Source: Mycoplana dimorpha
Lineage (GTDB): Bacteria > Pseudomonadota > Alphaproteobacteria > Rhizobiales > Rhizobiaceae
Length of the DNA stretch: 64,000 bases
Reading direction: 5' to 3'
Assembly: GCF_003046475.1 (NCBI RefSeq)
Contig: NZ_PZZZ01000001.1
Location: 310,001 to 374,000 of the forward strand
Shown: one piece after another, positions 1 to 21,611 of the stretch
How the letters are laid out: every line of letters starts with the position of its first letter
How positions within the stretch are numbered: position 1 is the stretch's first letter
Program-made: the position numbers and the translations under genes
Notes under the pieces: model-generated
What the model was told of the DNA's origin: nothing
The model's database searches: none
The model's input: only the letters and a program-made list of their open reading frames with translations

Positions 1-68
1 GCTCGATCGACCGGGCCTCGCTGCGACTGGACGAAGCGCTGAAACGCCATGTGGGGGGAAGCCGATGA
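1..68 (+). CDS. C-terminal end of an upstream gene (partial, unrecognised)
   Basis: An open frame (codons from base 3) runs in from the left edge and ends at TGA 66-68, giving 21 residues ending HVGGSR. The stop overlaps the ATG of the next gene in an ATGA arrangement, the usual sign of translational coupling, so this is probably the last part of the preceding gene in the same operon. Too little is present to assign a family. A glycan-related protein is plausible from context only. Confidence 0.5.
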   Translation, partial: SIDRASLRLDEALKRHVGGSR

Positions 69-811
69 GTGTAGACGCAGTCTGGCAACCGCTTCTGGAC
101 GAACTCGACCGCTGGCGGGCCGCGGGGCGGCAGGCGACGTTCTGGCTGCGCGACGACGACGCCGTCGAGCCCACCGCCGCCCTCGACCGGCTGCTGGACC
201 TGACGGCCAGACACGCCGTTCCCACGGCGCTTGCTGTCATTCCGGCCTTCACGGGCGAGGCGCTGGCCGACCGGCTCGCCGAGGCGCCGCATGCCGAGGT
301 GATGGTGCACGGCTGGTCGCACGAGAATTTCGCGGCCGAGGGCGAGAAGAAGCAGGAGCTCGGTGACCATCGTCCCGCCGACGTCGTACTCGCCTCGCTC
401 GAAAAGGGCCTCGTCCGTCTGCGCCAGCTTCATGGTTCGCGCCTGTCGCCGGTGCTGGTACCGCCCTGGAACCGGATCGCCCCGGCGCTGGTGCCCCGGC
501 TCGGCGGGATCGGTTTCCGCGCGCTGTCGGTCTACGGCCCCGAGAGGAATGCCGGCCTGCGCGCGATCAACACCCATGTGGACGTGATGGACTGGCGCGG
601 CACGCGCGGCGGCCGGGAGACGGCAGTGCTGGTCGGGGGCATGGTCGCGCGCCTGCGGGCGATCGAGGCCGGCCATGGCACGCTTGGTCTGCTCACCCAT
701 CACCTCGTTCACGATGCGGCGGTATGGACCTTTCTGGAGGGCCTGTTTGAACGGACGGCGCACCATCCGGCCTGCCGCTGGGCGCCGATTTCGGCAATTC
801 TCGGCGACTGA
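65..811 (+). CDS. Polysaccharide deacetylase-like protein
   Basis: 248 residues with the layout of a carbohydrate esterase 4 / polysaccharide-deacetylase-like fold. An acidic triplet (DDD, residues 30-32) follows the first strand, a metal-type HxxxH lies at H82/H86 (HGWSHEN), a PPWNR motif is at 133-137, and a late histidine cluster (THHLVH) is at 211-216. Family members remove N- or O-acetyl groups from glycans using a divalent metal. No signal peptide is visible, so a cytoplasmic substrate or sugar precursor is likely. ATG 65 overlaps the preceding stop. It runs convergently to the MBL-fold gene at 927-1835. The neighbouring glycosyltransferases support a role in glycan modification; the substrate is unknown. 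Confidence 0.75.
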   Translation: MSVDAVWQPLLDELDRWRAAGRQATFWLRDDDAVEPTAALDRLLDLTARHAVPTALAVIPAFTGEALADRLAEAPHAEVMVHGWSHENFAAEGEKKQELGDHRPADVVLASLEKGLVRLRQLHGSRLSPVLVPPWNRIAPALVPRLGGIGFRALSVYGPERNAGLRAINTHVDVMDWRGTRGGRETAVLVGGMVARLRAIEAGHGTLGLLTHHLVHDAAVWTFLEGLFERTAHHPACRWAPISAILGD

Positions 812-926: not shown

Positions 927-1835
927 CTAGGCGGCGACCGTCGCATATTCCAGCATCTGGCCGTCGCGGGCCGAGAAGGCGTTGGGGAACTCGGCGGCGG
1001 CGAGGCGGTCGATCGCTTCGAGCTCGGCGTCGGAGCGCCATGGGGCATGGTGGATGAAGGCGATGGACCTGGCATTGCCGGCCCTTGCCAGCCGGATCGC
1101 CTGCTGCCAGGTCGAGTGGCCGAAGCCACGGAAGACTTCCATCTCCTCGTCGATGTAGCAGCAGTCGTAGATGAACAGGTCGACGTTCTCGATCAGCCGC
1201 AGCACCTCGGGGTCCAGCGTGCCCGGCACATGCTCGGTGTCGGTGATGAATGCCACCGAGCGGCCGCGCCATTCGAGCCGGTAGCCGATTGCGCCGCCGG
1301 GATGGTTGAGGTTGCCGGTGCGCACCGTGATGCCGCGGCGCGGCTCGAGCACGTCACCGGCGCGGAAGTCGCCGAAGGTGAGGGAGGCTCGGCAGATCCT
1401 GGGGTCGACCGGGAACCATGGCGGCCGCATGAACTCGCACAGCATCTCGCCGGTGGTCATCGTCCCCGCCAGGTGCCCCGACCAGATCTTGATGGCGCAT
1501 CCGGGGTCGTAGAGCGGCTTGAAGTAGGGGATTCCGATGATGTGATCGTAATGGCAGTGACTGAAGAAAAGGTCGACCTGCCGCACCCCTTGGGCCTTCA
1601 GCGCCATGCCCGCCGGGGGTATGCCGGAACCGGCGTCGAACAGCAGGATGTCGTCGCCGCAACGGATCTCGACGCTTACCGTGTTGCCGCCATACCGGCT
1701 GAACTGCGGACCCGAGACCGGGATGCTGCCGCGCGTGCCCCAGAATTTCACCGACAGCGTGCCGTTGGCGCCACTCGGTCGAGGAGGGGCTTTTGTCCGG
1801 TGCCTGGCCTGCGGTGGCATTTCCAGCAAGTTCAT
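927..1835 (-). CDS. MBL-fold metallo-hydrolase
   Basis: 302 residues with the metallo-beta-lactamase signature HxHxDH at H93, H95, D97 and H98 (SHCHYDH), an N-terminal KFWGTRGSIPV block typical of the PhnP/RNase Z-like branch, and downstream metal-ligand candidates in NHPGG and ITDTEH. Members of this branch hydrolyse phosphodiesters, including cyclic nucleotides in some cases, but the substrate here cannot be read from sequence. The first 25 residues look disordered. It follows the cyclic-nucleotide-binding gene on the same strand after a 262-nt gap, so it may be the last gene of that transcription unit or have its own promoter. No convincing promoter was found in the gap. Confidence 0.8.
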   Translation of the reverse strand: MNLLEMPPQARHRTKAPPRPSGANGTLSVKFWGTRGSIPVSGPQFSRYGGNTVSVEIRCGDDILLFDAGSGIPPAGMALKAQGVRQVDLFFSHCHYDHIIGIPYFKPLYDPGCAIKIWSGHLAGTMTTGEMLCEFMRPPWFPVDPRICRASLTFGDFRAGDVLEPRRGITVRTGNLNHPGGAIGYRLEWRGRSVAFITDTEHVPGTLDPEVLRLIENVDLFIYDCCYIDEEMEVFRGFGHSTWQQAIRLARAGNARSIAFIHHAPWRSDAELEAIDRLAAAEFPNAFSARDGQMLEYATVAA

Positions 1836-2607: not shown

Positions 2608-5319
2608 TTATGACACCAATTCCCTGAATGTCGCATTGTCCGCAAGGTCGGCATGTTTGCCGTCTCCCACGAGCTTGCCATTGTCGAAGATCAATACGCG
2701 ATCGAAAAGATCGGTCAGCGTGGTGTTGGACAGGACCCAGACGACGCCGGGCCTCTGCCCCTTTTCTTGCAAAAGCTCGAGCGCGTTGCGGCAGACCTGC
2801 TCCTGCAGTCGGGCGTCGAGCCCCGGCAGTGGCCGGTTGAAGACATAGAAGTCCGACCGCCGCAAGAGCGCCCGGGCCAGGTTCAGTTTCTGGCGCTGAA
2901 CCTGGGTGAGGCGGCGTCCGCCGGCGCCGAGGTTGAAGTCCAGTCCGATCGACAGGACCTGGTCGTAGATGCCGGGTTCGCTGAGCAGCGAGATCACCAT
3001 GGCACGCACCCGCTCCGGGCCGTCGGCCTGGCGGTGGCTGACGCGACCGAACAGAACGTTGTCCAGGATGCTTGCCGACGCCGTGTAGCTATCCGGATCG
3101 TAGCGCTCGATCGCGCCCTTCATCGTGTCCGGCATGCCCTCGTGGAACTGGCGGCGCGCGTCGACGATCTTGGCCATCAGCTGATCCGTCAGGAGGCCGA
3201 AGCGGTGCCGCGGCTCGATATAGGCGAAGCTGAGGCGGATGATGTCGTGCTTGTCGTCCTCGGTGGTCTCGGAAAAGTCCTTGCCCTTCAGCCTCTGCAG
3301 CAGTTTCTGATAATACGGGAGGTCGTCCGGGGTCATGAAGGTGAGCTGCTGGAAGAACGGGTGGTCCGGCGGCAGCCCGGCAAAGAGCTCGACCGCGTTC
3401 TCGGCGATCTCATAGCCCATCCGGTAGAGAATCCGATCGAGGCCGTTGCGGCTGACCACGTCAACGAAATACGGGTTGCGGCCGATGGCGGGGCCTGTCA
3501 GCTCCTCGCCGATCGCGGTGCCGAACAGCAGGTTCTCGCCAACCGTGGCCTCGATGTTGTAACGGTCGGGTTCGAACGGCACGACGAGGTTGCTCAGGCC
3601 TGCCTTGTCCAGTTCGTGGCGGAGGGTATGGCACAAGGCGACGATGTGCGCGGCCAGCGCTCCATGCGAGCGCGGTGTGATGGTGGAGCGCAGCGCAAGT
3701 TCGAGGATGTCCCTGGTCAGGCAGACGCAGTCGAGGACGGCGGCGATCGAGGCGAAGAGGTCGTCCGGGCCGGTCGCGCCCGCCGCCTCGTAGTCGATCC
3801 AGTCGCCGTGGATGTCGAGATCCGGATTGCCAGCGGCCCGCGCCTCGCTGATCTCCCACTTGCGGGTGGCCTTGTGGTCGTCGTCGTACTCGGGGACCCG
3901 CAACGGCGCGTGCTTGAGGCCGTAGAGCAGGTTGTCGCACAGCGAGCCGAAGAAGAAATAGCCGTCCGAGGAGACATAGGTGATGCGGCGGCCGGCCACC
4001 GATTCCGGCAGCTCGAGCAGATCGGTCTTGCCCACCGTGAGGCGCCCCGATTCCGGCCACACGATCCGGCCGAGGGCTTCGGCCAGCGCCTCGCCGCCGG
4101 CCGCCGCCCCGCCGATGATCGCGGTGAACTCGCCCCGCGCGAACTGGATCGACAGGTGCTCCAGCGTGCGGGCGCCGCTGTCGTCGGCAACCGTCAGGTT
4201 GATCGCCGAAAGCGGTCCGTCGAGCGGCGCCGTCGCTTCGAACGACACCGCCTGGATGGCGGGGTCGATCAGGTGGTCGACCTTGAACTGCTCGACCACC
4301 TGGGTGAACTTGACCTGGACGTCCTGGCGCGCCTGGTCCCAGTCGATCAGTTCCTTCAGCGGTCCCGGCAGGTCCTTGTAGGCGGCGATGACGGCGACGA
4401 GCTGTCCGATGTCGAGCCGCCCCTGCAGCGCCAGGTAGCCGCCGATCAAGTAGAACAGGAACGGCGTCACCGAGGCCAGGAAGTTGTTGATGAACTTGAC
4501 CAGGAATTTCCACTGGTAGAGGTCGTAGCGGATCTTGAAGATCCGCCCGAGCCGGCTCGCGATGTCGGCGCGCTCGAGGTTGGACGTATCGAAGGCGTGG
4601 ATCGTGCCGATGCCATCGACGATCTCGCTGACACGGCCGGCCAGTTCTCGTGCGGTCAGCTGCCGCTCGCGCCCGAGAATCAGCAGCCGGCGGCGCATGC
4701 GCGGAATTACCACCGCCTGTACGGCGACGATGATGCCGGCGATCATGCCGAGCCAGACGTTCTGGACGAGGATGAAGAACAGCGCCGTCGCCGCCTGGCC
4801 GCCGAGCAGGGCCGGGGCTACGAAAGCGTCGCCGGTGAAGCCGCCGAGCGGCTCCACCTCGTCCTTCACCATGCTGGCGATCTCCGCGCCCTTGACGCGC
4901 TTGAACTGAGCAGGCGGAAAGCGCAGCACGCGGTCAACGAGTTCGAAGCGGATCCGCCGCAGGAGGCGCTCGCCGAGGCGGCCCTTGTAGGTGTTGATGT
5001 AGAGCTTGAACACCCCGTTCACGACGACCAGCGCCAGGAAGACCAGGCTGAGCCCGACCAGCATCTGCAGGCGGTTCAGCTCGACGCCGGGGAAGAACAC
5101 GACATTGCCGAAGAACGGCAGGTCGTAGGCGATCCGCATGAAGGTCTGCGTCGCCGCCTCGCCCTCGAAGCCGTGGCCCTGGATCGGGCCGTTGACGATC
5201 TGCTTGGGCAGGTCGAAGGACAGGAAATAAGGGATCATCGAGGCCGCGACGACAAGCAGGATCCATAGCTGCTGCTTGCGCGTGTGCGTCCAGATGTAAT
5301 GGGCCAGGCCTTTTTCCAT
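2608..5319 (-). CDS. ABC-exporter-like protein with degenerate ATPase domain
   Basis: About 903 residues from ATG 5319; a TTG at 5346 in the same frame is less likely. The N-terminal ~330 residues form an ABC exporter transmembrane domain with several hydrophobic helices. The nucleotide-binding domain is recognisable but its catalytic motifs are gone. The Walker A site (about 4113-4090) reads GGAAAGGEA with no lysine. The Q-loop glutamine is replaced (YVSS). The signature reads LTQVQ (2910-2896). Walker B reads FYVFNRPLPGLD without the Asp-Glu pair (2850-2815). The switch histidine is Asn (2727). About 300 extra residues sit between Q-loop and signature, carrying two further copies of the post-Q-loop motif DN(L/V)L(F/Y)G. 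It is probably a non-hydrolysing membrane scaffold or sensor. Downstream lies the cNMP-binding gene, upstream the glycosyltransferases. Confidence 0.75.
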   Translation of the reverse strand: MEKGLAHYIWTHTRKQQLWILLVVAASMIPYFLSFDLPKQIVNGPIQGHGFEGEAATQTFMRIAYDLPFFGNVVFFPGVELNRLQMLVGLSLVFLALVVVNGVFKLYINTYKGRLGERLLRRIRFELVDRVLRFPPAQFKRVKGAEIASMVKDEVEPLGGFTGDAFVAPALLGGQAATALFFILVQNVWLGMIAGIIVAVQAVVIPRMRRRLLILGRERQLTARELAGRVSEIVDGIGTIHAFDTSNLERADIASRLGRIFKIRYDLYQWKFLVKFINNFLASVTPFLFYLIGGYLALQGRLDIGQLVAVIAAYKDLPGPLKELIDWDQARQDVQVKFTQVVEQFKVDHLIDPAIQAVSFEATAPLDGPLSAINLTVADDSGARTLEHLSIQFARGEFTAIIGGAAAGGEALAEALGRIVWPESGRLTVGKTDLLELPESVAGRRITYVSSDGYFFFGSLCDNLLYGLKHAPLRVPEYDDDHKATRKWEISEARAAGNPDLDIHGDWIDYEAAGATGPDDLFASIAAVLDCVCLTRDILELALRSTITPRSHGALAAHIVALCHTLRHELDKAGLSNLVVPFEPDRYNIEATVGENLLFGTAIGEELTGPAIGRNPYFVDVVSRNGLDRILYRMGYEIAENAVELFAGLPPDHPFFQQLTFMTPDDLPYYQKLLQRLKGKDFSETTEDDKHDIIRLSFAYIEPRHRFGLLTDQLMAKIVDARRQFHEGMPDTMKGAIERYDPDSYTASASILDNVLFGRVSHRQADGPERVRAMVISLLSEPGIYDQVLSIGLDFNLGAGGRRLTQVQRQKLNLARALLRRSDFYVFNRPLPGLDARLQEQVCRNALELLQEKGQRPGVVWVLSNTTLTDLFDRVLIFDNGKLVGDGKHADLADNATFRELVS

Positions 5320-5541: not shown

Positions 5542-6735
5542 CTATCGCCGCACCGCCGTTTCACTGGCCAGCGTGGCGACCGGCGTGCCGGCCAAGAGCG
5601 CGCGCAACAGCCTTGCCGTCGTGCGGGCGCCGTCGAGATCGAGCGGCGGCGGTGGCGGGCGTGGCCGGTCGAGCGTGGTGGCGATCGCCTCCGTCAGGGT
5701 TTGCGGCGTCAGCGACCGCTCGCCGACCACGGTGGCAAGCCCCATCTGGCGCAATCGCTCGGCACGGGCGGCCTGCTCGGTCTCGCCCCCGGCCGTGAAC
5801 GGCACGTAGACCGCGCGGCAGCCGGCGCGCAGGACGTCGCAGACCGTGTTGTAGCCCGACTGCGAGACCGACAGCCGCGCCCCCGAAAGCAGACCGGGGA
5901 AATCCGCACGGAACCGCTCGACGACGACGTTGTCCGGGGCTGCCAGAAGAACTGCCTCGAAGGCCGGCTGCGGCAGGTTCGGCCCGGCCACCAGGCACCA
6001 GCGCAGCGTCGGCGGCAGTGCGCGTGCGGCGGCGATCGCCGCCGCGTTCAGCGCCGCTCCCACCGCGCCGCCGCCGGCGGAGACGAGGATGTCGAAGCGT
6101 TCGGCGGCGGGCGCCTGTGGCCGAGCCGCGACGAGGCCGGTGTAGAGGAGGCGATCGGCGATCTGCCCGGCGAGCGGGAAGCTGTCCTCGAGCCGCGCGA
6201 AGGACGGATCGCCATGGACGAAGATGCCGTCGAAGTGGGCGCTCGCAAGCGCGACGCTCTCCTCGTCGCGGCCGGGCTTGCGGCGCTGCTGGAGGATGTC
6301 GCGCACCGACGACAGCACGATCGGCGGCGCCGCCCGGGAGGCGATCGCCTCGAGCAGCGGCATCAGCTCGAAACGAACCTGGCGGCGGCCGAACGGGAAG
6401 GCCTCGATGATGACGACATCCGGTCGGGCCTCGCGGAAGACGGCCAGCAAGAGGTCGCGGCGACGGTCCTTGAAGGCGTCGTCGACCGGCGTGCCGGTCA
6501 GGTCGACAAGCCCCGAGAAACCGGCATCGCCGGCTGCCATCGGCGGCAGTTCGACGTGCCGGATGCGAGGGCCGGGAAAGCCTGGAACCGGCGTGCCGCC
6601 GGTGACCATCGTCACGTCGAAGGCGTCGTCGGCGAGCGCCTGCGCGATGCGGCTGGCGCGGGCGAGATGACCGATGCCGAGCAGGTGCTGGACGTAGAAG
6701 AAGACGCGGGGGGAGGGACTTGCGATTCCGGCCAT
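5542..6735 (-). CDS. MurG-like glycosyltransferase (GT-B fold), paralogue 1
   Basis: About 397 residues. The N-terminal GIGHLARASRIAQAL resembles the first loop of MurG-type GT-B enzymes, and the C-terminal SQSGYNT with a following VPF block resembles the family 28 nucleotide-sugar-binding half. It transfers a sugar from a nucleotide donor, presumably in the cytoplasm or at the inner membrane; acceptor unknown. ATG 6735 is preferred because it forms a TGATG overlap with the stop of the upstream glycosyltransferase. An alternative in-frame ATG at 6750 would add five residues. The glycine-histidine loop and the GYNT motif are shared with the gene at 7984-9192, suggesting an old duplication. Confidence 0.8.
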   Translation of the reverse strand: MAGIASPSPRVFFYVQHLLGIGHLARASRIAQALADDAFDVTMVTGGTPVPGFPGPRIRHVELPPMAAGDAGFSGLVDLTGTPVDDAFKDRRRDLLLAVFREARPDVVIIEAFPFGRRQVRFELMPLLEAIASRAAPPIVLSSVRDILQQRRKPGRDEESVALASAHFDGIFVHGDPSFARLEDSFPLAGQIADRLLYTGLVAARPQAPAAERFDILVSAGGGAVGAALNAAAIAAARALPPTLRWCLVAGPNLPQPAFEAVLLAAPDNVVVERFRADFPGLLSGARLSVSQSGYNTVCDVLRAGCRAVYVPFTAGGETEQAARAERLRQMGLATVVGERSLTPQTLTEAIATTLDRPRPPPPPLDLDGARTTARLLRALLAGTPVATLASETAVRR

Positions 6736-7979
6736 CAGGCGACCTGCCATTCGTTCTCGAACAGGGCCGTCAGTTGGCGGATGCCGACATGGTGATCGAA
6801 TTCGGCGCGCACGCGGCGCTCGGCCGCCTCTCCGAGGCGTGTGCGCAATGCCGGGTCGCGGATCAGCCGCTCGATCGCGCCGGCGAGCGCCTTCGGGTCC
6901 TCCGGCGGCACGACGAAGCCGTTCTCGCCGTCCTTCAGCAGTTCCGGAATCCCGGAGATGTCGGTGGAGACGCAGGCGAGCTTCTGGCTCGACGCCTCGA
7001 CCAGCACGTTCGGCAGGCCGTCGCGGTCGCCGTCGGCGGTGATGCGGCAGGCGAGCGCGAATAGGTCGGAGCGCCGGTAGGCTTCGAGGCAGTCATGCTG
7101 GTCGAGCGCCCCGTGCCAGGTGATGCGGCCGGCGAGGGCGAGCCTGTCGGCCAGCGCCTTGAGTGCCTCGAGGTTGGGTCCGCCGCCGATATGGACGAAG
7201 CGCCAGCAAACCCCGGCGGGCAGCAGCGCCAGCGCCTGGAGCAGTATGTCGTAGCCCTTCTTGTCGACGGCGCGGCCGACGCTAAGAATCGTCACCGGGT
7301 CTTCCGGATCGGAGCCGTCGCGCAGCGAATGCGCGCCCGCAAACGGCCCGAACCGGTCGAGGTCGAGGCCGTGGTAGCTGAGGTGAACGTGGTTTTTGCC
7401 GTTTGCGAGGCCCCGTAGCCGGTCGAAGCCGGTCTGGTTGCAGGTGACCGTCCAGCGCGTGTCGGAGAGCTTGCCCTCCAGCTCCCAGTCCGGCGAGGTC
7501 CAGATGTCCTTGGCATGGGCCGAGCAGGTCCAGGGCGTCCCGTTCATCAGGCTCGCATAGCGGGCCACGGACGCGGGGGTGTGGATGAAGTGGGCGTGCA
7601 GCCAGTCCGCCCCTTCCGGCCATTCGGCACAGAGCACCGCCGCCTGCCCGAACCGGCGGATGCGGTTCGGCGTGAGGTCGCGGCGCAAATCCTTCAGGAA
7701 GGCGCGCCAGGCGGCGCGAAAGCCGGGGAGGCGGGAACTCCTGACGAGCCCGCGGACCACGCGCAGCGGCTCCTGGTAGAGATATTCCGGCAGGTAGTGC
7801 ACGGGGGCGCGGATCTCGTCATGGACCGGGTGGCGCTTGCGATCGGTCGGGTGGCGCATGGAGATCAGCGTCAGCTCGAAGCCGGCCCGTTCCAGCCCGA
7901 GCAGTTCCTGGGCGATGAAGGTCTCGGAAAGGCGCGGATAACCCTTGAGGATGACGGCGATTTTCTTCTGCTGTGTCAC
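6735..7979 (-). CDS. Glycosyltransferase family 4-type protein
   Basis: About 414 residues from GTG 7979. The N-terminus (KIAVILKGYPRLSETF) is the classic start of GT4 glycosyltransferases acting in exopolysaccharide synthesis. The C-terminal half has VLSVGRAVDKKGYD (donor-binding domain entry) and the GLPNVLVEASSQKL block with its preceding acidic residues. An upstream ATG at 8018 in the same frame would extend into the preceding gene by 35 nt; the GTG, 4 nt after the upstream TGA, fits the family N-terminus better. It is the middle gene of three coupled glycosyltransferases, so the three probably act on one glycan. Sugar specificity cannot be predicted. Confidence 0.85.
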   Translation of the reverse strand: MTQQKKIAVILKGYPRLSETFIAQELLGLERAGFELTLISMRHPTDRKRHPVHDEIRAPVHYLPEYLYQEPLRVVRGLVRSSRLPGFRAAWRAFLKDLRRDLTPNRIRRFGQAAVLCAEWPEGADWLHAHFIHTPASVARYASLMNGTPWTCSAHAKDIWTSPDWELEGKLSDTRWTVTCNQTGFDRLRGLANGKNHVHLSYHGLDLDRFGPFAGAHSLRDGSDPEDPVTILSVGRAVDKKGYDILLQALALLPAGVCWRFVHIGGGPNLEALKALADRLALAGRITWHGALDQHDCLEAYRRSDLFALACRITADGDRDGLPNVLVEASSQKLACVSTDISGIPELLKDGENGFVVPPEDPKALAGAIERLIRDPALRTRLGEAAERRVRAEFDHHVGIRQLTALFENEWQVA

Positions 7980-7983
7980 GTAG

Positions 7984-9192
7984 TCAGCCCCGTACGAGGG
8001 AAAGGTGCCGGTCGCCATGGACGTCCAGCAGGTCGCCGACGATCCGGGAAATGCGCGGCAGCCCCTCCAGCCGCAGCGCCGACGAAGTCTGCGAGGGCGG
8101 CGCGCGGTAGGGCAGGGCCTTCAACGCCTTTGCCAGCACCAGCGGGCGGCGCGATTGCTCCGGCGACAGCATCTGCACCAGGCCGAGTTCCTCGGCCCGC
8201 CGGGCACGGATCAACTGCTCCTCGCGCGGATTGACGCGGGGCACGACGATCGCCGGCTTGTCGAAGGAGAGGATCTCGCAATAGGTGTTGTAGCCGCCCA
8301 TCGCCACGACGCCGGTGGCGCCGGCGATCAGTTCCTCCATGCGGTTGTCGAATTCGATCACCTCGACATAGGGGATCTTCGCGGCCTTGCGGATCAGCTT
8401 CTGGCGCTGCTCGGCCGGCATGTAGGGGCCGAGCACGATCAGCGCCTTGTGGGTCAGTTCGCGGTCTTCCTTGTAGGCGTGGAGGACGTCGTGAATGAGC
8501 GCGGCGCCATCGCCGCCGCCGCCCGGGGTGACCAGGATATAGTCCTCGCGCGGGCGGTGGTCGGAATGAGGCTCATGCGAGACGCTGCGCTGCAGGAAGC
8601 CGACGAAATTCATGCGGGTGCGCACGGCCGGCGGCGTGTCGAGGCCGATCAGCGGATCGTAGAAATCCGGCGGCCCGTAGACCCAGATCCTGTCGTAGTA
8701 TCTGGCGACCTTGCCCATGACGTCATGGCGCTTCCATTCGGCGTCGAGCAGGTGGGGCGCGTCCATGACGTCACGCAAGCCGAGGACCAGCGTCGTGCCG
8801 CGGGCCTTGAGATAGGCGAGCGTGTCCTCGACCTCGCCGCGGAGGCCCATCGGCTCCTTGTCGACGATGAAGATGTCCGGCTGGAAGCTCTCGGCCGTGT
8901 GCCGGATGATCGACTGCCGCATCTTCAGCGTCTCGTGCAGGTCGATATGCTGTTCCATCGAGGTGTATTCGCCGTTGCGCAGCTTGATGACGCTCGGGAT
9001 CTTCACGAAATCGACGCGGGCGCGGTAGTCGAAGGCACCGGCGATCGGCGAGCCGGAGATGATCAGGATGTTGAGGCCGCGGAAATCCTCAACCAGCGAA
9101 TGGGCGATGGTACGGCAGCGCCGCAGGTGGCCAAGGCCGAAGGTGTCATGGCTGTACATCAGGATACGGGCGTCTTCCAAACGTCGTGCCAT
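7984..9192 (-). CDS. MurG-like glycosyltransferase, paralogue 2
   Basis: About 402 residues. The N-terminal MYSHDTFGLGHLRRCRTI loop and the C-terminal GGYNTYCEIL followed by PRVNPREEQ match the two halves of a GT-B, MurG-like transferase. ATG 9192 is chosen because GGAG sits 6 nt upstream; the GTG at 9204 lacks such a site. It is first of three consecutive glycosyltransferases on this strand. Only about 80 nt separate it from the ABC importer operon upstream on the same strand, so readthrough is possible. A central glycine-rich TPGGGGDGAAL probably contributes to the nucleotide-sugar pocket. Confidence 0.8.
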   Translation of the reverse strand: MARRLEDARILMYSHDTFGLGHLRRCRTIAHSLVEDFRGLNILIISGSPIAGAFDYRARVDFVKIPSVIKLRNGEYTSMEQHIDLHETLKMRQSIIRHTAESFQPDIFIVDKEPMGLRGEVEDTLAYLKARGTTLVLGLRDVMDAPHLLDAEWKRHDVMGKVARYYDRIWVYGPPDFYDPLIGLDTPPAVRTRMNFVGFLQRSVSHEPHSDHRPREDYILVTPGGGGDGAALIHDVLHAYKEDRELTHKALIVLGPYMPAEQRQKLIRKAAKIPYVEVIEFDNRMEELIAGATGVVAMGGYNTYCEILSFDKPAIVVPRVNPREEQLIRARRAEELGLVQMLSPEQSRRPLVLAKALKALPYRAPPSQTSSALRLEGLPRISRIVGDLLDVHGDRHLSLVRG

Positions 9193-9271
9193 TGGATACT
9201 CCACACAGGTCTACCGACAGAACTGAGAGGCCGTACTAGGATTCGCTATTGGTGCACCGCACACATTTTCG

Positions 9272-10447
9272 TTACTTGTAGGGATCGGCCGCATCGCGCA
9301 GCCCGTCGCCCAGGAAGTTGAACGCCAGAATCACCAGGATGACCGGGATCATCGGAAACAGCAGCCAGGGATAGAAGGCGATGACGCTGACGCTGCGCGC
9401 CTCGGTGAGCAGGATGCCCCAGCTGGTGATCGGCGGGCGCAGGCCGAGGCCCAGGAAGCTGAGGGCGGTTTCACCGAGGATCATGCCGGGAATGGTGATC
9501 GTTGCGCTGGCGATCAGGTGCGACATGAAGCCCGGCACCAGGTGGCGGCCGATGATCCGGCTGGTGCTCGCCCCCATCAGCTGCGCCGCCAGCACATAGT
9601 CCTCCTCGCGCAGCGCCAGCAGTTTCGAGCGCACCGCGCGCGCCAGCCCGGTCCAGTCGAGCAGCCCGAGAATGACGGTGATGCCCAGATAGACGAGGAT
9701 CGGGCTCCAGCTGACGGGCATGATCGCGGCGAGCGCCAGCCACAGCGGGATGCTGGGGATCGACTGCAGCACCTCGATGACGCGCTGCACGGCGAGGTCG
9801 ATGTAGCCGCCGTGATAGCCGGCGATGCCGCCGATGACGATGCCGAGCGTGAAGCTCACCGCAATGCCGATCAGGCCGATGGTCAGCGAGATGCGGGCGC
9901 CGTAGATGATGCGTGACAGCACGTCGCGACCCAGCCGGTCGGTGCCGAGCAGGAACATCTGCCCGTCCCTCGCCGGGCAGACGAGGTGGAAGTTGCTCTC
10001 CCAGATGCCCCAGAAGCGGTAGGGATCGCCCGCGCAGAAGAAGCGCAGCCGCTGAACGTCGTTGCGGTTGTCGGTGTAGATGCGGCGCAGCGTGTCCATG
10101 TCGAGCGTCATCTGGCGCCCATAGACGAACGGGCCGACGAGCTGGCCCTCGTGGAAGAGGTGCACGCGCTGCGGCGGCGAATGGATGAAATCCATGTTGC
10201 GGGTGTGCAGGTTGTATGGCGCCAGGAACTCGGCGACGACGATCGCCAGGTAGAGTGCCAGCAGGAAGATGCCGGAAACCAGCGCGATCCTGTGCTTCTT
10301 GAACTTCCACCACATCAGCCGCGTCTGCGAGGCCTGGAAGATCTTGGCCTGGCCCGCCGTCATCGCCTCCACCGAATAGGGGTCGAAGGGCGCGGTCGAG
10401 ACGTAATGCTTCAGGGGTGCGCCGGATTCGGGCAGGGACACGGTCAT
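9272..10447 (-). CDS. ABC importer permease, DppC/OppC type
   Basis: 391 residues. After a cytoplasmic N-tail of about 50 residues comes one membrane helix, then a periplasmic stretch of about 90 residues (residues about 75-165), then the core permease with GTDRLGRDVLSRIIYGARIS and the EAA-type loop around GASTSRIIGRHLVPG. The insertion is larger than in plain dipeptide permeases and resembles family members linked to oligosaccharide uptake (recall, not tested). ATG 10447 overlaps the stop of the upstream permease gene (ATGA), so the two are coupled. It is the last gene of the four-gene importer operon. Confidence 0.88.
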   Translation of the reverse strand: MTVSLPESGAPLKHYVSTAPFDPYSVEAMTAGQAKIFQASQTRLMWWKFKKHRIALVSGIFLLALYLAIVVAEFLAPYNLHTRNMDFIHSPPQRVHLFHEGQLVGPFVYGRQMTLDMDTLRRIYTDNRNDVQRLRFFCAGDPYRFWGIWESNFHLVCPARDGQMFLLGTDRLGRDVLSRIIYGARISLTIGLIGIAVSFTLGIVIGGIAGYHGGYIDLAVQRVIEVLQSIPSIPLWLALAAIMPVSWSPILVYLGITVILGLLDWTGLARAVRSKLLALREEDYVLAAQLMGASTSRIIGRHLVPGFMSHLIASATITIPGMILGETALSFLGLGLRPPITSWGILLTEARSVSVIAFYPWLLFPMIPVILVILAFNFLGDGLRDAADPYK

Positions 10448-11442
10448 TTGGTGCTTCCCCCCTGAAGCCGGATGCGCGGATCGAGAAGGGCGAGCGCGAT
10501 ATCGGAGATCAGCACGCCGATGACGGTGAGGAAGGCGAGGAACATCAGGAACGAGCCGGCCAGGTACATGTCCTGGCTCTGCAGCGCCTTGATCAGCATC
10601 GGGCCGGTCGTTTCCAGCGACAGCACGATGGCGGTGATCTCGGCGCCGGAGATGATCTGCGGCAGGATCGAGCCGATATCGGAGATGAAGAAGTTGAGCG
10701 ACATGCGCAGCGGGTATTTGACCAGCGCCCGGAACGGGTTCATGCCCTTGGCGCGGGCCGTCACCACATACTGCTTCTGCAGTTCGTCGAGCAGGTTGGC
10801 GCGCAGCCGGCGGACCATGCCGGCGGTTCCCGCCGTCCCGATGATGATGACCGGGATCCACAGGTGCTCGAGGATCGACTTGGCCTTTTCCCAGCTCATC
10901 GGCTCGTTGAGGAACTTCTGGTCCATCAGGTGGCCGATCGAGGTGCCGAACCAGATGTTGGCGAAGTACATCAGGATCAGCGCCAGCATGAAATTGGGGA
11001 TGGCCAGGCCGATCAGGCCCAGGAAGGTCAGGCCGTAGTCACCCCAGCTGTACTGGTGGGTGGCCGAGTAGATGCCGATCGGAAAGGCGATCAGCCAGGT
11101 GAACACGATGGTGACGAAGGAGACCAGCACCGTCAGCCACAGCCGGTCGCCGACCACCGAGGAGACCGGAAGCTGGTATTCGAACGAATAGCCGAAATCG
11201 CCCCTCAGCATGCCGCCGACCCAGTGGAAGTAGCGGATCGGCGCCGGCTTGTCGAAACCGTAGCGCTCCCGCAGCGCCGCGATCTCCTCCATGTCGGCGG
11301 CCTCGCCCATGGCCCGCAGCTCCGACACGTAGCTCTCGAAGTAGTCGCCCGGCGGCAGCTCTATGATGGTGAACACCAGGACCGAAATCAGGAAGAGCGT
11401 CGGCACCATCACGGCAATGCGCCAGAGAATGTATCGCAACAT
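10444..11442 (-). CDS. ABC importer permease, DppB/OppB type
   Basis: 332 residues. The N-terminus MLRYILWRIAVMVPTLF is the typical start of DppB-type permeases, followed by a periplasmic domain (residues about 35-95) and five further hydrophobic helices. The EAA loop reads VVTARAKGMNPFRALVKY, where the ATPase docks. It begins 3 nt after the stop of the binding-protein gene and overlaps the next permease by 4 nt. It forms the heterodimeric channel with the product of 9272-10447. Confidence 0.88.
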   Translation of the reverse strand: MLRYILWRIAVMVPTLFLISVLVFTIIELPPGDYFESYVSELRAMGEAADMEEIAALRERYGFDKPAPIRYFHWVGGMLRGDFGYSFEYQLPVSSVVGDRLWLTVLVSFVTIVFTWLIAFPIGIYSATHQYSWGDYGLTFLGLIGLAIPNFMLALILMYFANIWFGTSIGHLMDQKFLNEPMSWEKAKSILEHLWIPVIIIGTAGTAGMVRRLRANLLDELQKQYVVTARAKGMNPFRALVKYPLRMSLNFFISDIGSILPQIISGAEITAIVLSLETTGPMLIKALQSQDMYLAGSFLMFLAFLTVIGVLISDIALALLDPRIRLQGGSTK

Positions 11443-11445
11443 CGG

Positions 11446-13350
11446 TCAGCCGCTCCCGTCTAGCCAGAACGTGTCGGGCAGGTAGACGCCCATGAAGGCG
11501 GTGGGGTCGTAGCCGTACAGCCCCCTGTCCGGCACGTTCTTCATGTTCCTTGCCGTGACGACCGGCTGCAGCGTGCCGTTGACGATGCCGATCGAGAAGA
11601 CCTGGTCGGTGTAGATCGACAGCATTTCGGTCCAGATCGCCTCGCGCTCGGGCGTCGATGTCGATTGCTTCCATTGCTTCATCAGCTCGACCAAGCGCCT
11701 GGCCTCCGGAAGGTCCGGAGCCTCGCCCTTCTGTTCGGCGGAAAGATAGTGCAGGCCCCAGACCGGCCACTGCAATTGGTCGTCCCCGGTTGGCGCCAGC
11801 GCGGCGGGCGACATGTCCGCGGTCGGAATGCCGTTGTCGATGCCCTGCTGCACCGAGATCATGATCTCGCCGCCGAGCGCGCGGCTGCGGAACACGTCCC
11901 GTTGCGAGGTGCGCACGTGCAGCTTCAAGCCGATCTGCTGCCAGTGGTCGGTGACCAGTTCCAGCACGTCGGTCTCCAGCGTGCTTTCGCCGGCCGATTC
12001 GACGATGAGGGCCGCTTCCCGCCCGTCCGGCAGGATGCGCATCTCTTCCTGCTTGTTCCAGGTGAGGCCGGCTTCGTCGAGCAGCCGGTTGGCCAGCTCA
12101 GGGTCGAACTGTGCCCAGGCGTGCTGATACTCGGCCTTGAACAGCGGGCTCTCCGGCAGGACCGTATCGGCGCTTTCGCGCGCCAGGCCGAAAAAGCTCG
12201 CCTTGTTGATCTCCTGGCGGTTGATCGCCACCGACAGCGCCCGTCGGAAGCGGACGTCGTGGAACAGATCGCGCCAAACCTTATCGCCGCAGTTGAGGTT
12301 CGGAAGCAGCGCGATGCGCGAAGCCTGGATGCGTTCCCACAGTCGGACCTGGACCGGATAGCGTTGCTCCGCGTCCTTCAGGAAGGTGTAGTCCTCGAAG
12401 TCGAGGCCGTAGGACTGGATGTCCGCCTCTCCGGCGCCGGCCTTGGCGGGAATGATGCCGGATGACGAGACGTTCAGCAGAACCCGGTCGATATAGGGCA
12501 GCTGCTGGCCGGTCTCGTCGACGCGGTGGAAATAGGGGTTGCGCTCGAAGATGAACTGCTCGGCCGGCGGCGCGGTCAGGTTGCGCCACGGGTCGAGCGT
12601 CGGCAGGTCGGGGTTTTCCGGGCGGTAGGTGCGCGAGCGGTTGATGTGCAGCCCGGTCCAGTCGTCGGTGCCCTCCTTCTCGACCAGCTTCTTCAGCTTC
12701 TCGGGATCGGCATATTTTGGGTGGAACTGCTTCATGTAATGCGCCGGCAGCGCCAGCGTCAGCGGCTGCGGCGATGCCAGGCGCTGCAGGAAGTCGGGGT
12801 TCGGAACATCCCAGGAATAGCGGACGGTCAGCCGGTCGACCACCTCGAAGCGCGGCGGCTTGCCATCGGAGAGCAGGTCGAGCGGCAGGCCGCGCGGGCG
12901 CATCTCCTTGTTGTTGAGCACGTCGTACCAGTAGTAGACGAAATCGTCGACGGTGAAGGGATAGCCGTCCGACCAGCGATGCCCCTCGCGCAGCCGCAAC
13001 GTATAGACGCGGTTTTCGACCTGCTCGAAGCTCTCCAGGATATCCGGTTGCAGCGCGAGGTGCTCGTCGATGCCGATCAGGCGGGCGTAGCCGTTGATCG
13101 TCATCAGGCGGATGTCCTTCTGGCCGCCGATGATCATGCGCACCGACCCGCCGTACTGGCCTGGGCTTCGACCCGTCGCGGCCAGGTTGACGACGCGCGG
13201 TACCTTCGGGATGCGCTCGGCCATCGGTGGCAGCGAACCGTCGGCAAGTTTCGTCTTCAGGAATTCCGGTTCTCGCAGCGCCGCCCGGGCGACCGGGGCG
13301 GGCAGGCAGGCGGCGGCCATCAGGCCGAGAACCGTCCTTCGCGTGATCAC
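11446..13350 (-). CDS. ABC importer substrate-binding protein, family 5
   Basis: 634 residues from GTG 13350, which overlaps the stop of the upstream ATPase gene (GTGA). The N-terminus TRRTVLGLMAAACLP has a twin-arginine pair and a hydrophobic core ending ARA, so export by Tat or Sec followed by cleavage near residue 23 is expected. The mature part is a large cluster-C, family 5 (DppA/OppA-like) solute-binding protein. RWSDGYPFTVDDF is the characteristic motif. The size (over 600) is closer to oligopeptide or oligosaccharide binders than to dipeptide binders. The adjoining polysaccharide-lyase-like gene favours a glycan fragment, but a peptide cannot be excluded. Confidence 0.85.
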   Translation of the reverse strand: MITRRTVLGLMAAACLPAPVARAALREPEFLKTKLADGSLPPMAERIPKVPRVVNLAATGRSPGQYGGSVRMIIGGQKDIRLMTINGYARLIGIDEHLALQPDILESFEQVENRVYTLRLREGHRWSDGYPFTVDDFVYYWYDVLNNKEMRPRGLPLDLLSDGKPPRFEVVDRLTVRYSWDVPNPDFLQRLASPQPLTLALPAHYMKQFHPKYADPEKLKKLVEKEGTDDWTGLHINRSRTYRPENPDLPTLDPWRNLTAPPAEQFIFERNPYFHRVDETGQQLPYIDRVLLNVSSSGIIPAKAGAGEADIQSYGLDFEDYTFLKDAEQRYPVQVRLWERIQASRIALLPNLNCGDKVWRDLFHDVRFRRALSVAINRQEINKASFFGLARESADTVLPESPLFKAEYQHAWAQFDPELANRLLDEAGLTWNKQEEMRILPDGREAALIVESAGESTLETDVLELVTDHWQQIGLKLHVRTSQRDVFRSRALGGEIMISVQQGIDNGIPTADMSPAALAPTGDDQLQWPVWGLHYLSAEQKGEAPDLPEARRLVELMKQWKQSTSTPEREAIWTEMLSIYTDQVFSIGIVNGTLQPVVTARNMKNVPDRGLYGYDPTAFMGVYLPDTFWLDGSG

Positions 13351-15236
13351 GGGCGCAACTCCCTCACATCGGCGTTCCGGCGGGCGAGCACCAGGTGTCC
13401 GGCGCCGAGATCGATCGGCGTCAGTCCTTCGCCGGCTTCGTCGCGCCGGAACTGGGGCGCCCAGTTGCGCATGTCGCTGGCGTTCGCCGCCTGCGACGCC
13501 GAGAAATCCAGCGGCCGGTCGAGGTCGGGGAAGGGGACCGCCGCCAGCAGCGATCGGGTATAGGGGTGGACGGGCGCGCGCATCAGGATCTCCCGCGGCG
13601 CGAGCTCGACGATCCGCCCTGCGCACATCACCGCGATCCGGTCGGCCATGTAGTCGACGACGGCGAGGTTGTGCGAGATGAACAGGTAAGTGAGGCCCAA
13701 GTCCTTCTGCAGGTCCTTCAGGAGGTTGAGAATCTGCGCCTGGACCGATACGTCGAGCGAGGAGACCGGCTCGTCGCAGATCAGGAGTTCCGGCCCGAGC
13801 GCCAGCGCCCGCGCGATGCCGATCCGCTGCCGCTGGCCGCCGGAAAACGAATGCGGATAGCGGTTCAGGTAACGGCTGTTCAGCCCGATCGCCTCCATCA
13901 GCGCGACGACCGTCTCTTGGCGGGACTTCGGCGTGCCGCGGCCATGGATCTCCAGCGGCTCGGCAAGGATGTTCTGCACCGTCATGCGCGGCGACAGCGA
14001 GGAAACCGGGTCCTGGAACACCATCTGGATCTTGGCGCGCAATTTCTGCAACTCGCCGCCCTCAGCCTTGAGGACGTCGATCGGGCCTTTGCGATCGTTG
14101 AAGACGATCGAGCCGGAATCGGGTGTTACGGCACGCATCAGCATCTTGCTGACGGTGGTCTTGCCGCAGCCGCTTTCGCCGACCAGGCCGAGGCACTCGC
14201 CGCGCCGGATGTCGAAGCTGACGCTGTCGACGGCGCGCAGTGGCGCCTCGTCGGGCCGCCGGAAGAACCCGGCCTTGCGGATCTGGAAGGACTTGGTGAC
14301 GTCGCGCACCGAAAGCACGATCTCCGGGCCTGTCCGGTCCCGCGAGCCGACCGTACCGAGCAGGTGCGAGGCGTTGACCGGAACCTCGCGCAGCGCCTTC
14401 AGCCGCTCGCCCGGCTTCATGTCGAAATGCGGCACCGCGGCCATCAGGCCCCTGAGATAGGGATGGGCGGGGCGGCGGAAGATGTCCTCGACCGGGCCGG
14501 CCTCCATGATCTCGCCATGGTAGATGACCACCACCTCGTCGGCGACGTTGGCGACGACGCCGAGGTCGTGGGTGATCAGCAGCATCGCCATGTTGAGCTC
14601 GTGCTGCAGGTCGCGCAGCAGCCGGAGGATCTGCGCCTGGATCGTCACGTCGAGCGCGGTCGTCGGCTCGTCGGCGATCAGCAGCGCCGGCCGGCAGATC
14701 AGCGCCAGCGCGATCATGGCGCGCTGGCGCATGCCGCCCGACAGCTCGAAGGGATACATCCTGAAGGCGCGCTCGGGCTTGGCGAAGCCGACCAGCCGCA
14801 GCATCTCGATGGTGCGTTCGTAGCGCTCGGCCCGGCTCATGTCCTCATGGATGGTGAGCACCTCGCTGACCTGGTCGCCGACCGTGTGAAGCGGCGACAG
14901 CGACGTCATCGGCTCCTGGAAGATCTTGCCGATGCGGCGGCCGCGGATGGCGCGGATGTCGGGACCGTCCTGCGACAGGGCGAGGATGTCGGTCTGGCGG
15001 CCGGTCAGCGGGTCGTTGAAGAGGATGCGGCCCGAGGCGGTGGCGATGCGCGGCAGGATGCGCATGACCGACTGGCTGATGACGGACTTGCCCGAGCCGG
15101 ATTCGCCGACGAGCGCCGTCACCTTGCCGGGCAGCACGCGCAAGCTGGCCTTTTTTACCGCGTCGACCCGGCCCCCGAGCATTGCGAAGGAGATGCTGAG
15201 ATCCTCGATCCGCAACAGATCTGCCCCTCGGATCAT
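13347..15236 (-). CDS. ABC importer double ATPase (DppD-DppF fusion)
   Basis: 629 residues from ATG 15236, with GGGGA about 10 nt upstream; a longer open frame to 15353 lacks family similarity. There are two complete nucleotide-binding domains. The first has Walker [10 protein letters not shown], signature [10 protein letters not shown] and Walker [13 protein letters not shown]. The second has [24 protein letters not shown] and [12 protein letters not shown]. Each is followed by the oligopeptide-type C-terminal extension. The GsiA/YejF-type fusion means one polypeptide supplies both ATP sites for the permease pair downstream. It is the first gene of the four-gene importer operon. Confidence 0.9.
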
Positions 15237-15385
15237 GCGCGGTACATCCCCTTGGTTACTTTTGCGTCGTAACAGCGCGAGACTTGCGTCGTATCCAGTG
15301 CGGGAAAGAGTAGCGAAGGCACCCGCGGCTGTCCATGTTATTACACGAGCCAACGTTGTAGCGGCCTGATCGGTATGGCTTTTCG

Positions 15386-16342
15386 TCAGCCACGTGGCGG
15401 AGGATCAGCGGCGCTTGCGGTACGCAGGGCCGCCAGCGCCGCCGGCCGAAGCACATCCTCGGCGTGCATCGAACGGCGAAAATTGTCGAAGTAGAGGCTC
15501 CACTTGCCAAGCCCGGCCGTGCGGTAGGGGCCGAACTTGAAGTACTGCCGTGCGCCGAGCCCCGGATCGTCGTGGCCGACATCTCCGCGCACCGTCGCCA
15601 CCCAGCGATCGTTGGCGAACAGCTCGATGTGGCCGCTGCCGTCCGGACCGGGCCGGGTCATCACGGCAAAATCGATCCAGCCCGAGTCCGGCGCCGGCAG
15701 CCGGTGGCCCCGGCCGATGACGGTGATGCGATCGGTGCGGTCGCAGAACAGCTGGCCGTGCCGCGGTTGCCAGTGCGGGTCGGTGGCGACGAGCGCCCGC
15801 ATCTGACGCACCTCGGGCCGCAGCCAGACCGGCGTGAGGCCCGGTTGTGCCGCCACGGACGAGGGCAGCGCGTCTTCGGCGCGCCACGTCGTCTCGACGG
15901 TGGCGAACAGTCGACCTGCGACCAGCCGCAAGGCCAGGAATGGGCTGAAATCGCCCTTTGCCGCCGGTCCGATCTCGCGCTTCCACTGGGCGATCAGGTG
16001 GCGGCCGTCGTCTTGCGGGATCGGATCGGCGAACAGGACGGAAAAGCCGTACCAGACGGGCTCGTCGTAAGGCACCCGCAGCGCGGTTCTCTCCCAGACC
16101 TCGGCCCGTTCGCTGCCATTGCCCCTGCCGTTCCAGAGCGGTCGCACGGTGAGCTTCAGTGCGCCGGGGCTGCCGTGGGTGATGTCGCGCTGGAACTCGA
16201 CGGTGCCGGCGCTCTGCTCGAGGTTGTCGCGGTAATAGAGGCCGCCGTCCGGTGAAAAATCGTCACCATCGAAGCCGTCGACGAGAAGCGCATCATAGCG
16301 TGGGAGGGCGGCTTCGTTCCTGTCGGACGAGCCGCCGGCCAT
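15386..16342 (-). CDS. Polysaccharide lyase-like protein (heparin lyase I family fold)
   Basis: 318 residues. The order of motifs (ERAEVWERTALRVPYDEP, WYGFSVLFADP, then QWKRE and a C-terminal YFKFGPYRT block) is that of the heparin-lyase-I-like jelly-roll family. Known members cleave acidic polysaccharides by beta-elimination. No signal peptide is seen: the N-terminus is polar (MAGGSSDRNE), so either it is cytoplasmic or exported by another route. ATG 16342 comes 1 nt after the stop of the nucleotide cyclase gene (TGAGATG), indicating coupling. Downstream, about 150 nt away on the same strand, begins the importer operon. The substrate is unknown. Confidence 0.65.
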   Translation of the reverse strand: MAGGSSDRNEAALPRYDALLVDGFDGDDFSPDGGLYYRDNLEQSAGTVEFQRDITHGSPGALKLTVRPLWNGRGNGSERAEVWERTALRVPYDEPVWYGFSVLFADPIPQDDGRHLIAQWKREIGPAAKGDFSPFLALRLVAGRLFATVETTWRAEDALPSSVAAQPGLTPVWLRPEVRQMRALVATDPHWQPRHGQLFCDRTDRITVIGRGHRLPAPDSGWIDFAVMTRPGPDGSGHIELFANDRWVATVRGDVGHDDPGLGARQYFKFGPYRTAGLGKWSLYFDNFRRSMHAEDVLRPAALAALRTASAADPPPRG

Positions 16343-20315: not shown

Positions 20316-20587
20316 TGTCGGTCCCGCTGGGTCCCTGACGATTGCATTTTGCGGTCGGCGGAAAGCCGACAGAAGAGTCTGCCTGCTTTCGCCCGTTTCG
20401 GCAACGGGACGATAGCGGCGGAAGCGGTCCGGAAGGAGGCGGATCGCCTTAAAGTGGGGACACGCGATCTGCCTTCCGTGATCGTTGTCGTGCACGCTGC
20501 ATCGGTTGCACGGGCCAGAGCAGGGGAGGCGGCGAGGGACGAAGGTTGGTCCGTGCCGCAAGGCCGGCGGCTGCCCCCCGAGTTTGC

Positions 20588-21610: not shown

Positions 21611-21611
21611 G

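Follow-up and report, generated by a model that had tools for sequence, protein, structure and literature searches.

We analyzed a 64,000-nucleotide window of the Mycoplana dimorpha genome (contig NZ_PZZZ01000001.1, positions 310,001 to 374,000 of the forward strand) in which one reverse-strand gene encodes a pseudo-ATP-binding cassette (ABC) exporter, here named pABC. The genes on that strand run in the order UDP-glucose dehydrogenase, epimerase, two cyclases, lyase, OppD/F-type ATPase, family 5 binding protein, two permeases, three glycosyltransferases, pABC, a protein with a cyclic-nucleotide-binding domain (cNBD) and a metallo-beta-lactamase (MBL)-fold hydrolase (Table 1). The original prediction, made from the nucleotide letters alone, placed a full-length ABC-exporter-like protein at 2608-5319, and a single open frame of 903 amino acids with Pfam ABC domains bears this out. 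The frame starts at an ATG kept among same-genus relatives; an in-frame TTG further upstream would yield 912 aa.

The pABC protein and its eroded ATP site

Residues 87-312 of pABC matched ABC_membrane (PF00664) at 66.2 bits (cut-off 28), and together with Foldseek this places the membrane domain with the type IV ABC exporters. ABC_tran (PF00005) matched residues 386-452 with its first half only (first 67 positions), at 27.1 bits and barely above the cut-off of 25; the predicted strands and helices of the nucleotide-binding domain follow in order, mostly at a predicted local distance difference test score (pLDDT) of 75-93, consistent with membership of that fold. The AlphaFold model was built on a 38-row rhizobial alignment and reached a mean pLDDT of 74.1 and a predicted template-modeling score (pTM) of 0.63. 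Its membrane domain shows long helices with a beta hairpin between helices 1 and 2, all at low confidence (ten-residue pLDDT means of 42-79). The hairpin (residues 58-81, window 5077-5148) is mostly absent from the distant fused relative L016, and about 40 additional Ala-rich residues link the membrane domain to the nucleotide-binding domain in two other relatives (L015 and L082; one Xaviernesmea oryzae, the other probably so). Foldseek returned ABC exporters with E values down to 1.3e-12, and half-exporters among the 50 rows listed had template-modeling (TM) scores of 0.48-0.55 by target length and root-mean-square deviations of 15-20 Å, so that the overall superposition is loose. Among the best 60 of 312 stretches from solved structures, the best reached to about residue 470-485 or began at about 732-803, leaving the middle of pABC uncovered.

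The losses of the Walker A Lys, Walker B Asp-Glu, Q-loop Gln and switch His had been correctly called in the original prediction; the loss of the LSGGQ signature, also present, had not been mentioned. For the family as a whole, 194 hits over all loci gave 166 distinct sequences, 165 of them of at least 840 aa, and 80 representatives below 80% identity. The Walker A Lys was present in 32 of these 80, and together with the Ser/Thr in only one (L154; Gly-Glu in the window protein). Walker B Asp-Glu was kept in 3/80 (Asn-Arg in the window protein), the Q-loop Gln in 9/80 and the switch His in 18/80, both of which the window protein lacks, and LSGGQ in none, with LTQVQ in its place in the window protein. 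No member had the complete set of ATPase residues. The degenerate residues make a recurring alternative pattern: the Walker A Ser/Thr position holds an acid (Asp or Glu) in 58/80 members, the Walker B Asp position holds Asn in 51/80, and the two are combined in 43/80. For comparison, 12 fragments of ordinary exporters, taken from the same genomes or related ones and selected for SGGQ (one of the 12 stretches, L197, yielded no fragment and another yielded two), had Walker A and B intact in 12/12 and AHR in 11/12.

In a quick tree of membrane domains (80 rows plus 11 exporters; the program flagged long branches), the window protein fell within a 24-row set (support 98) from which the Lys was absent in 24/24, and the distribution of Lys over the tree requires at least 13 changes. 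Because 32 of the 80, deeper relatives, retain the Lys, erosion of the ATPase is a matter of degree and reaches completion in some branches only, including the rhizobial one; none of the ATP-site set remains in the window's own branch. The check proposed with the original prediction, whether the degenerate motifs hold across homologues, bore it out in that no intact set occurred, and went against it in that the loss is graded. Judging from these sequences, loss of the signature was probably complete in the family ancestor, and the lineages probably lost the remaining motifs at separate times.

The gene is kept under selection. All six same-genus genomes sampled carried pABC at 82-85% identity, and none of the seven same-genus sequences contained a frameshift or stop. 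The ratio of nonsynonymous to synonymous substitution (dN/dS) in these seven had a median of 0.163 overall and 0.084 in the membrane domain (21 non-independent pairs); the latter is the most strongly constrained part of the protein, with many invariant residues. The long family matches listed in near relatives showed no internal stops. Together with the recurring replacement pattern, these results agree with a conserved pseudo-ABC protein, as had been proposed, and not with a decaying gene. One homologue (L133, G240:C15:619191-620240) has a single in-frame TAG, possibly a local pseudogene or a sequencing error.

Triplicated modules and a cyclic-nucleotide-binding partner

Three copies of a DN(L/V)L(F/Y)G motif had been noticed in the nucleotide-binding domain, at coordinates that proved right; copy 2, however, begins with Glu, not Asp. 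Their conservation in homologues, which the prediction had proposed as a check, was found: the motif Asn is kept in 72/80, 80/80 and 80/80 members for copies 1, 2 and 3, respectively. The regions around the motifs were then compared as profiles drawn from the 80-member alignment, with columns of more than half gaps removed. Copies 2 and 3 matched at P 1.6e-18 over 84 columns, copies 1 and 2 at P 6.4e-8, and copies 1 and 3 at P 4.4e-8, and for each of the three pairs 0/100 column shuffles reached the score, by which we rejected chance repetition of the motif. Five other segment pairs were at background, their scores reached by 10 to 70 of 100 shuffles. Trimming hardly altered the repeat scores. 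In a control against the C-terminal segment, untrimmed profiles gave an artefact (P ∼1e-25 over 7-52 columns), and the trimmed control lay at the shuffled level.

The spacing of the family differs accordingly from that of ordinary exporters. From the Q-loop to the signature the distance is 323-429 residues (median 357, n = 80), vs. 58-64 residues from the Q-loop Gln to the signature in 11 of the 12 ordinary fragments (no distance was obtained for the last one). Copy 1 lies 12 residues past the Q-loop position and copy 3 lies 54-63 residues ahead of the signature Gln; copy 2 with its links is what is extra relative to an ordinary exporter. The model agrees with three repeated helical modules, as predicted: in every copy the motif helix follows the strand at a distance of 14 residues (446 to 460, 579 to 593, 737 to 751), and modules 2 and 3 both open with a long helix (553-572, 712-727). 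On the evidence of these alignments, the Q-loop/helical-subdomain segment has been genuinely triplicated, each motif marking one copy.

A profile of the insert matched 131 of 385 genomes sampled across the class and 31 of 398 sampled across the phylum (overlapping samples, each including the window's genome). All 31 lay within the class, and no match fell outside Alphaproteobacteria among the 398 genomes of this phylum, to which the search was confined. Among the best 80 of 515 confirmed stretches, named carriers included Rhizobium, Sinorhizobium, Ensifer, Phyllobacterium, Mesorhizobium, Hoeflea, and Mycoplana. At E ≤ 1e-100, 248 plasmid records carried pABC, including S. meliloti pSymB, R. 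leguminosarum megaplasmids and Azospirillum. Annotated orthologues are labeled "ABC transporter transmembrane domain-containing protein," "ABC transporter ATP-binding protein" or similar.

A second recurring feature of the family, absent from the original prediction, is its link to a cNBD. Over the 135 loci with room to look (weighted toward Rhizobiaceae, with some near-duplicates), a cNBD was fused to pABC in 12 or encoded separately, on the same strand and directly downstream, in 113, for a total of 125, with a median gap of 57 bp to the separate gene. By homologue count (at least 60 bits, in flanks of ∼8 kb that limit the view), a separate cNBD gene occurred in 119 of 136 loci. The strict rule found neither arrangement in 10/135, and a looser count finds a cNBD frame in six of those ten (L086, L171, L182, L185, L187, L191). 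In the 51 loci from sampled genomes, a set less weighted toward rhizobia, 35 encoded the cNBD in a frame of its own and another 11 in fusion with pABC. C-terminal fusions include L016 (same order) and Azospirillum lipoferum (1048 aa, PF00027 at 54.8 bits).

In the phosphate-binding cassette of the partners, the Gly is present in 125/125, the Glu in 121/125 and the Arg in 125/125, and the window's cNBD protein, with these residues and its PF00027 match, is a predicted binder of cyclic nucleotides. One S. meliloti record labels the partner a Crp/Fnr transcription factor; since the window protein has only 153 aa, matches only PF00027 and has no C-terminal DNA-binding domain that we could find, it is not an ordinary Crp-type regulator. 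In R. leguminosarum WSM1325 (L104:15294-16042), a RelE/ParE-type toxin gene and a hypothetical gene come right after the cNBD gene, as they do in R. johnstonii 3841. One genome (G184) holds three diverged pABC copies (L157, L158, L159). The cNBD is fused to the C terminus of L157 and L158, and no glycosyltransferase cassette is in view around the three.

Glycosyltransferases, cyclases and importer around pABC

At least one of the three glycosyltransferases had a homologue beside pABC in 113/136 loci. Cyclase, OppD/F ATPase, binding protein, permeases, three glycosyltransferases, pABC and cNBD follow one another in this order in both R. leguminosarum WSM1325 and R. johnstonii 3841. The fused OppD-OppF-type ATPase retains both of its Walker A motifs, in contrast to pABC within the same cluster.

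Two cyclase genes lie within ∼15 kb of pABC in a genome with five PF00211 matches in all. In Cyc2, a marginal match to a 2Fe-2S ferredoxin-like domain precedes the catalytic domain. In other lineages cyclases stand directly beside pABC without glycosyltransferases (L013, L020, L022). Cyclase open frames occurred in 13 of the 51 genome-derived loci (916 kb) vs. 2.4 expected from 514 cyclase matches in 192.8 Mb (43 genomes), an excess that counts related lineages without correction for kinship and sets side by side two counts from different profile searches.

The PF14099 lyase and the UDP-glucose dehydrogenase in the cluster give a possible lead to a uronic acid polymer. The genes for glucuronan were said to be unknown in a 2023 paper (PMC10180729). 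Glucuronan biosynthesis by the cluster remains a lead, the lyase having a homologue in only 7/136 loci, where flank length is limiting.

Table 1. Features of the window, with coordinates in the window and supporting matches; fractions of 136 are loci with a homologue at 60 bits or more, within flanks of ∼8 kb.
Feature	Coordinates	Strand	Evidence
Polysaccharide-deacetylase-like protein	65..811	+	Very weak NodB resemblance, NCBIfam 16.2 bits (cut-off 240), no Pfam hit; 46/136
MBL-fold hydrolase, HxHxDH	927..1835	-	PF12706; 38/136
cNBD protein, 153 aa	2098..2559	-	PF00027, 68.3 bits (cut-off 27.5); no DNA-binding domain found
pABC, pseudo-ABC exporter	2608..5319	-	903 aa, single open frame; ABC_membrane and partial ABC_tran; full length kept in relatives
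Degenerate switch (H-loop) S864-N865	2725..2730	-	Motif check
Degenerate Walker B N828-R829	2833..2838	-	Motif check
Degenerate signature LTQVQ (804-808) in place of LSGGQ	2896..2910	-	LSGGQ in 0/80 homologues
Module 3 (700-800), motif copy 3 DNVLFG at 3046-3063	2920..3222	-	hhalign; Asn and Gly 80/80
Module 2 (548-695), motif copy 2 ENLLFG at 3520-3537	3235..3678	-	hhalign; Asn 80/80
Module 1 (440-555), motif copy 1 DNLLYG at 3919-3936	3655..4002	-	hhalign
Degenerate Q-loop position Ser-Ser (450-451)	3967..3972	-	Motif check
Degenerate Walker A GGAAAGGE (403-410)	4090..4113	-	Lys position is Gly, Ser/Thr position is Glu
Membrane domain, residues 1-345	4285..5319	-	PF00664; AlphaFold2 secondary structure (low confidence here); lowest dN/dS
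GT28-C-type glycosyltransferase GT28a	5542..6750	-	PF04101; 107/136
GT4-type glycosyltransferase	6735..8018	-	PF00534; 108/136
GT28-C-type glycosyltransferase GT28b	7984..9204	-	PF04101; 107/136
OppC-type permease (open frame, true start probably inside)	9272..10861	-	PF00528, PF12911; OppC homologue 85/136
OppB-type permease	10444..11442	-	PF00528, PF19300
Family 5 solute-binding protein (open frame, true start probably inside)	11446..13626	-	PF00496
Fused OppD-OppF-type ATPase	13347..15353	-	PF00005, two stretches; intact Walker A GESGSGKS and GESGCGKT
Polysaccharide lyase	15386..16342	-	PF14099; 7/136
Adenylate/guanylate cyclase-domain protein Cyc1	16344..17708	-	PF00211
Adenylate/guanylate cyclase-domain protein Cyc2	18582..20561	-	PF00211; marginal 2Fe-2S match PF00111
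Nucleotide-sugar epimerase/dehydratase	20588..21658	-	PF01370
UDP-glucose dehydrogenase family	21612..22940	-	PF03721/PF00984/PF03720

A proposed shift from ATP pump to second-messenger control

As judged from profiles and predicted structure, pABC combines an exporter membrane domain and a nucleotide-binding-domain fold with eroded ATP motifs and a triplicated segment, next to an intact-looking cNBD. ABC exporters are textbook ATP-driven pumps, and the present results suggest that in the pABC family such a pump has been turned into a device controlled by a second messenger. Tentatively, and with confidence that stops a little short of evenly balanced, we read pABC as an ABC exporter family that has given up the ATPase cycle, with control passing from ATP to a cyclic nucleotide and, in rhizobia, a tie to surface glycan. 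The counts behind the loss of the ATP site, purifying selection, triplication, the cNBD link, the cyclase excess and the lack of a partner exporter all speak for this reading; from the conservation and association so observed, we infer the gating and the substrate.

In the mechanism we have in mind, pABC would form a homodimer, and its enlarged helical subdomain would serve as a docking and transmission surface for the cNBD. A cyclic nucleotide from the neighboring cyclases would then, in place of ATP, shift the state of the membrane domain. In lineages with sugar genes, such as the rhizobia, the output might open, close or assemble a step of surface-glycan export or assembly, a step of which we are less certain. 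In ABC exporters the helical subdomain and Q-loop relay the nucleotide state to the coupling helices, so its tripling, alongside loss of the ATP residues, suits a role in receiving some other signal. The proposal could take the form of direct gating or of a ligand-controlled scaffold, and the sequence data fit both. The most far-reaching form, a class of cyclic-nucleotide-gated ABC exporters across a large share of Alphaproteobacteria, in which the ATP engine is retired, the tripled helical subdomain receives the cNBD, and the second messenger drives or gates the membrane domain, coupling cyclases to surface-glycan output where sugar genes are present, is possible but doubtful. The "scaffold or sensor" of the original prediction was a reasonable inference, and the cNBD link would point to a cyclic-nucleotide-controlled device; its observation is confirmed and its interpretation partly supported. 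If the reading of an ATP-free, cyclic-nucleotide-controlled family is correct, it would offer a natural experiment on an ABC membrane domain without ATP, this domain being under the strongest constraint; the cNBD link supplies a testable trigger, and the rhizobial neighbors point to surface polysaccharide.

Several observations weigh against it. A long family match was found in 16 of 31 near relatives (the window's own genome included) and the remainder show ordinary exporters only, so pABC is not universal even close to the window's genome. No cNBD, separate or fused, occurred in 5 of the 51 genome-derived loci (L159, L164, L166, L176, L178), and the cassette is divergent in five fused members (L155, L156, L157, L158, L160), with Asp for Glu in three. 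Within flanks of ∼8 kb, only 29 of the 51 loci from sampled genomes showed a glycosyltransferase, 21 of them the full trio, as did only two of the 12 fused-cNBD loci (L016, L106), and an Opp-type importer was in view in 7/51; set beside the 113/136 of the full set, the glycosyltransferase counts indicate that the sugar link is strong in rhizobia and several other lineages and is not family-wide. Relatives at 33-47% identity retain part of the ATPase residues (the Lys, and in a few cases Asp-Glu or His), and by sequence the deep members may still bind ATP; this graded loss is the main evidence against all members being equally dead. The uncorrected kinship and mixed searches behind the cyclase excess, and the low confidence of the membrane-domain model, count on the same side.

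Unlikely, though the strongest of the alternatives, is that pABC acts as a structural scaffold for the cluster's glycosyltransferases or importer, with no transport and with the cyclic-nucleotide protein only tuning assembly. The lost ATP site and the glycosyltransferase homologues adjoining pABC in most loci would suit such a role, whereas the membrane domain is the most constrained part of the protein (dN/dS 0.084 vs. 0.163 overall) and has many invariant residues, and none of the three glycosyltransferases is in view in 22/51 genome-derived and 10/12 fused-cNBD loci.

We consider it improbable that pABC is still driven by nucleotide through an unusual chemistry, the Walker A acid and Walker B Asn forming a swapped metal site and the rhizobial branch being merely further along. 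The joint occurrence of acid and Asn is what such a site predicts, and where the Lys is kept an acid often follows (K-E in 12 members, K-D in 12). Against this stand the complete absence of LSGGQ, the scarcity of the Gln and the missing Lys throughout the window's tree set, and no aromatic dominates the A-loop positions 370-383 (Tyr in at most 7 and Phe in at most 6 of 80, among the five commonest letters).

We give little credence to pABC serving as a regulatory subunit that pairs, in a heterodimer, with a canonical half-exporter from another part of the genome, or as a borrower of the ATPase subunits of the cluster's Opp-type importer. Heterodimeric exporters with one degenerate site are common, according to a review (PMC7756269), and the cluster does encode an intact fused OppD/F ATPase. 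A half-exporter beside pABC was nevertheless found in only 5/135 loci, three of them with two P-loops as in Opp/Dpp-type ATPases, in a search confined to the pABC loci, which leaves a local partner little support. In a composite site, moreover, one subunit must supply Walker motifs and its partner the signature; as pABC has neither kind of motif, neither site of such a heterodimer could be canonical.

That pABC is a decaying gene or pseudogene is extremely improbable and is rejected family-wide, since the missing catalytic residues and the one in-frame TAG (L133) are outweighed by seven open same-genus copies of seven, a dN/dS well below 1, the wide distribution and the 165 long homologues.

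No description of a pseudo-ABC family with cyclic-nucleotide binding was found in the open-licence papers searched, and the reading of pABC as a cyclic-nucleotide-controlled exporter relative is best placed by comparison with known systems. With the type IV half-exporters (MsbA, BmrA, TmrA, PCAT1) it shares the PF00664 family, the order of fold elements and the first and last parts of the nucleotide-binding domain; it differs from them in lacking the ATP-site motifs and in the ∼300 residues added by triplication of the helical subdomain. Its best NCBIfam profile is MsbA TIGR02203, at 143.6 bits and far under the cut-off of 602, which leaves it outside that family. The NHLM ABC1/ABC2 bacteriocin exporters, which we take to carry a cyclic-nucleotide-binding domain, resemble the pABC/cNBD pairing in joining an ABC exporter to a cNBD. 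The window's cNBD protein is weakly similar to TIGR03896, "bacteriocin-type transport-associated protein" (48.5 bits, cut-off 161); pABC itself scores well below the NHLM profiles TIGR03796 and TIGR03797 (109.7 of 853.3 and 87.4 of 709.4 bits) and has no peptidase domain that Pfam could find.

Among rhizobial genes, the pABC copy of S. meliloti 1021 lies at 841723-844432 on pSymB. SMb20813, named an msbA homologue in a passage of PMC10945364 that gives it no function, is possibly its orthologue, a match of gene number by interpolation that leaves the identity unconfirmed. The ChvI/msbA2 operon SMb21188-SMb21191 (PMC3687685) is a different locus, at 938 kb on pSymB vs. 842 kb for the pABC homologue. 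In PMC11103875, pRL110056 is named among the O-antigen enzymes needed for root colonization; it may belong to the cluster, although it could not be matched to the RL_RS tags, and SMb20811, from PMC6180224, could not be mapped either.

A precedent for tolerating lost catalytic residues in a working ABC fold is offered by the heterodimeric degenerate-site exporters such as TM287/288 and TmrAB. As described in the review (PMC7756269), degenerate sites are well documented in type IV exporters and one of the two sites is kept catalytic, whereas pABC erodes the Walker motifs and the signature in one and the same polypeptide and has no conserved partner at its loci.

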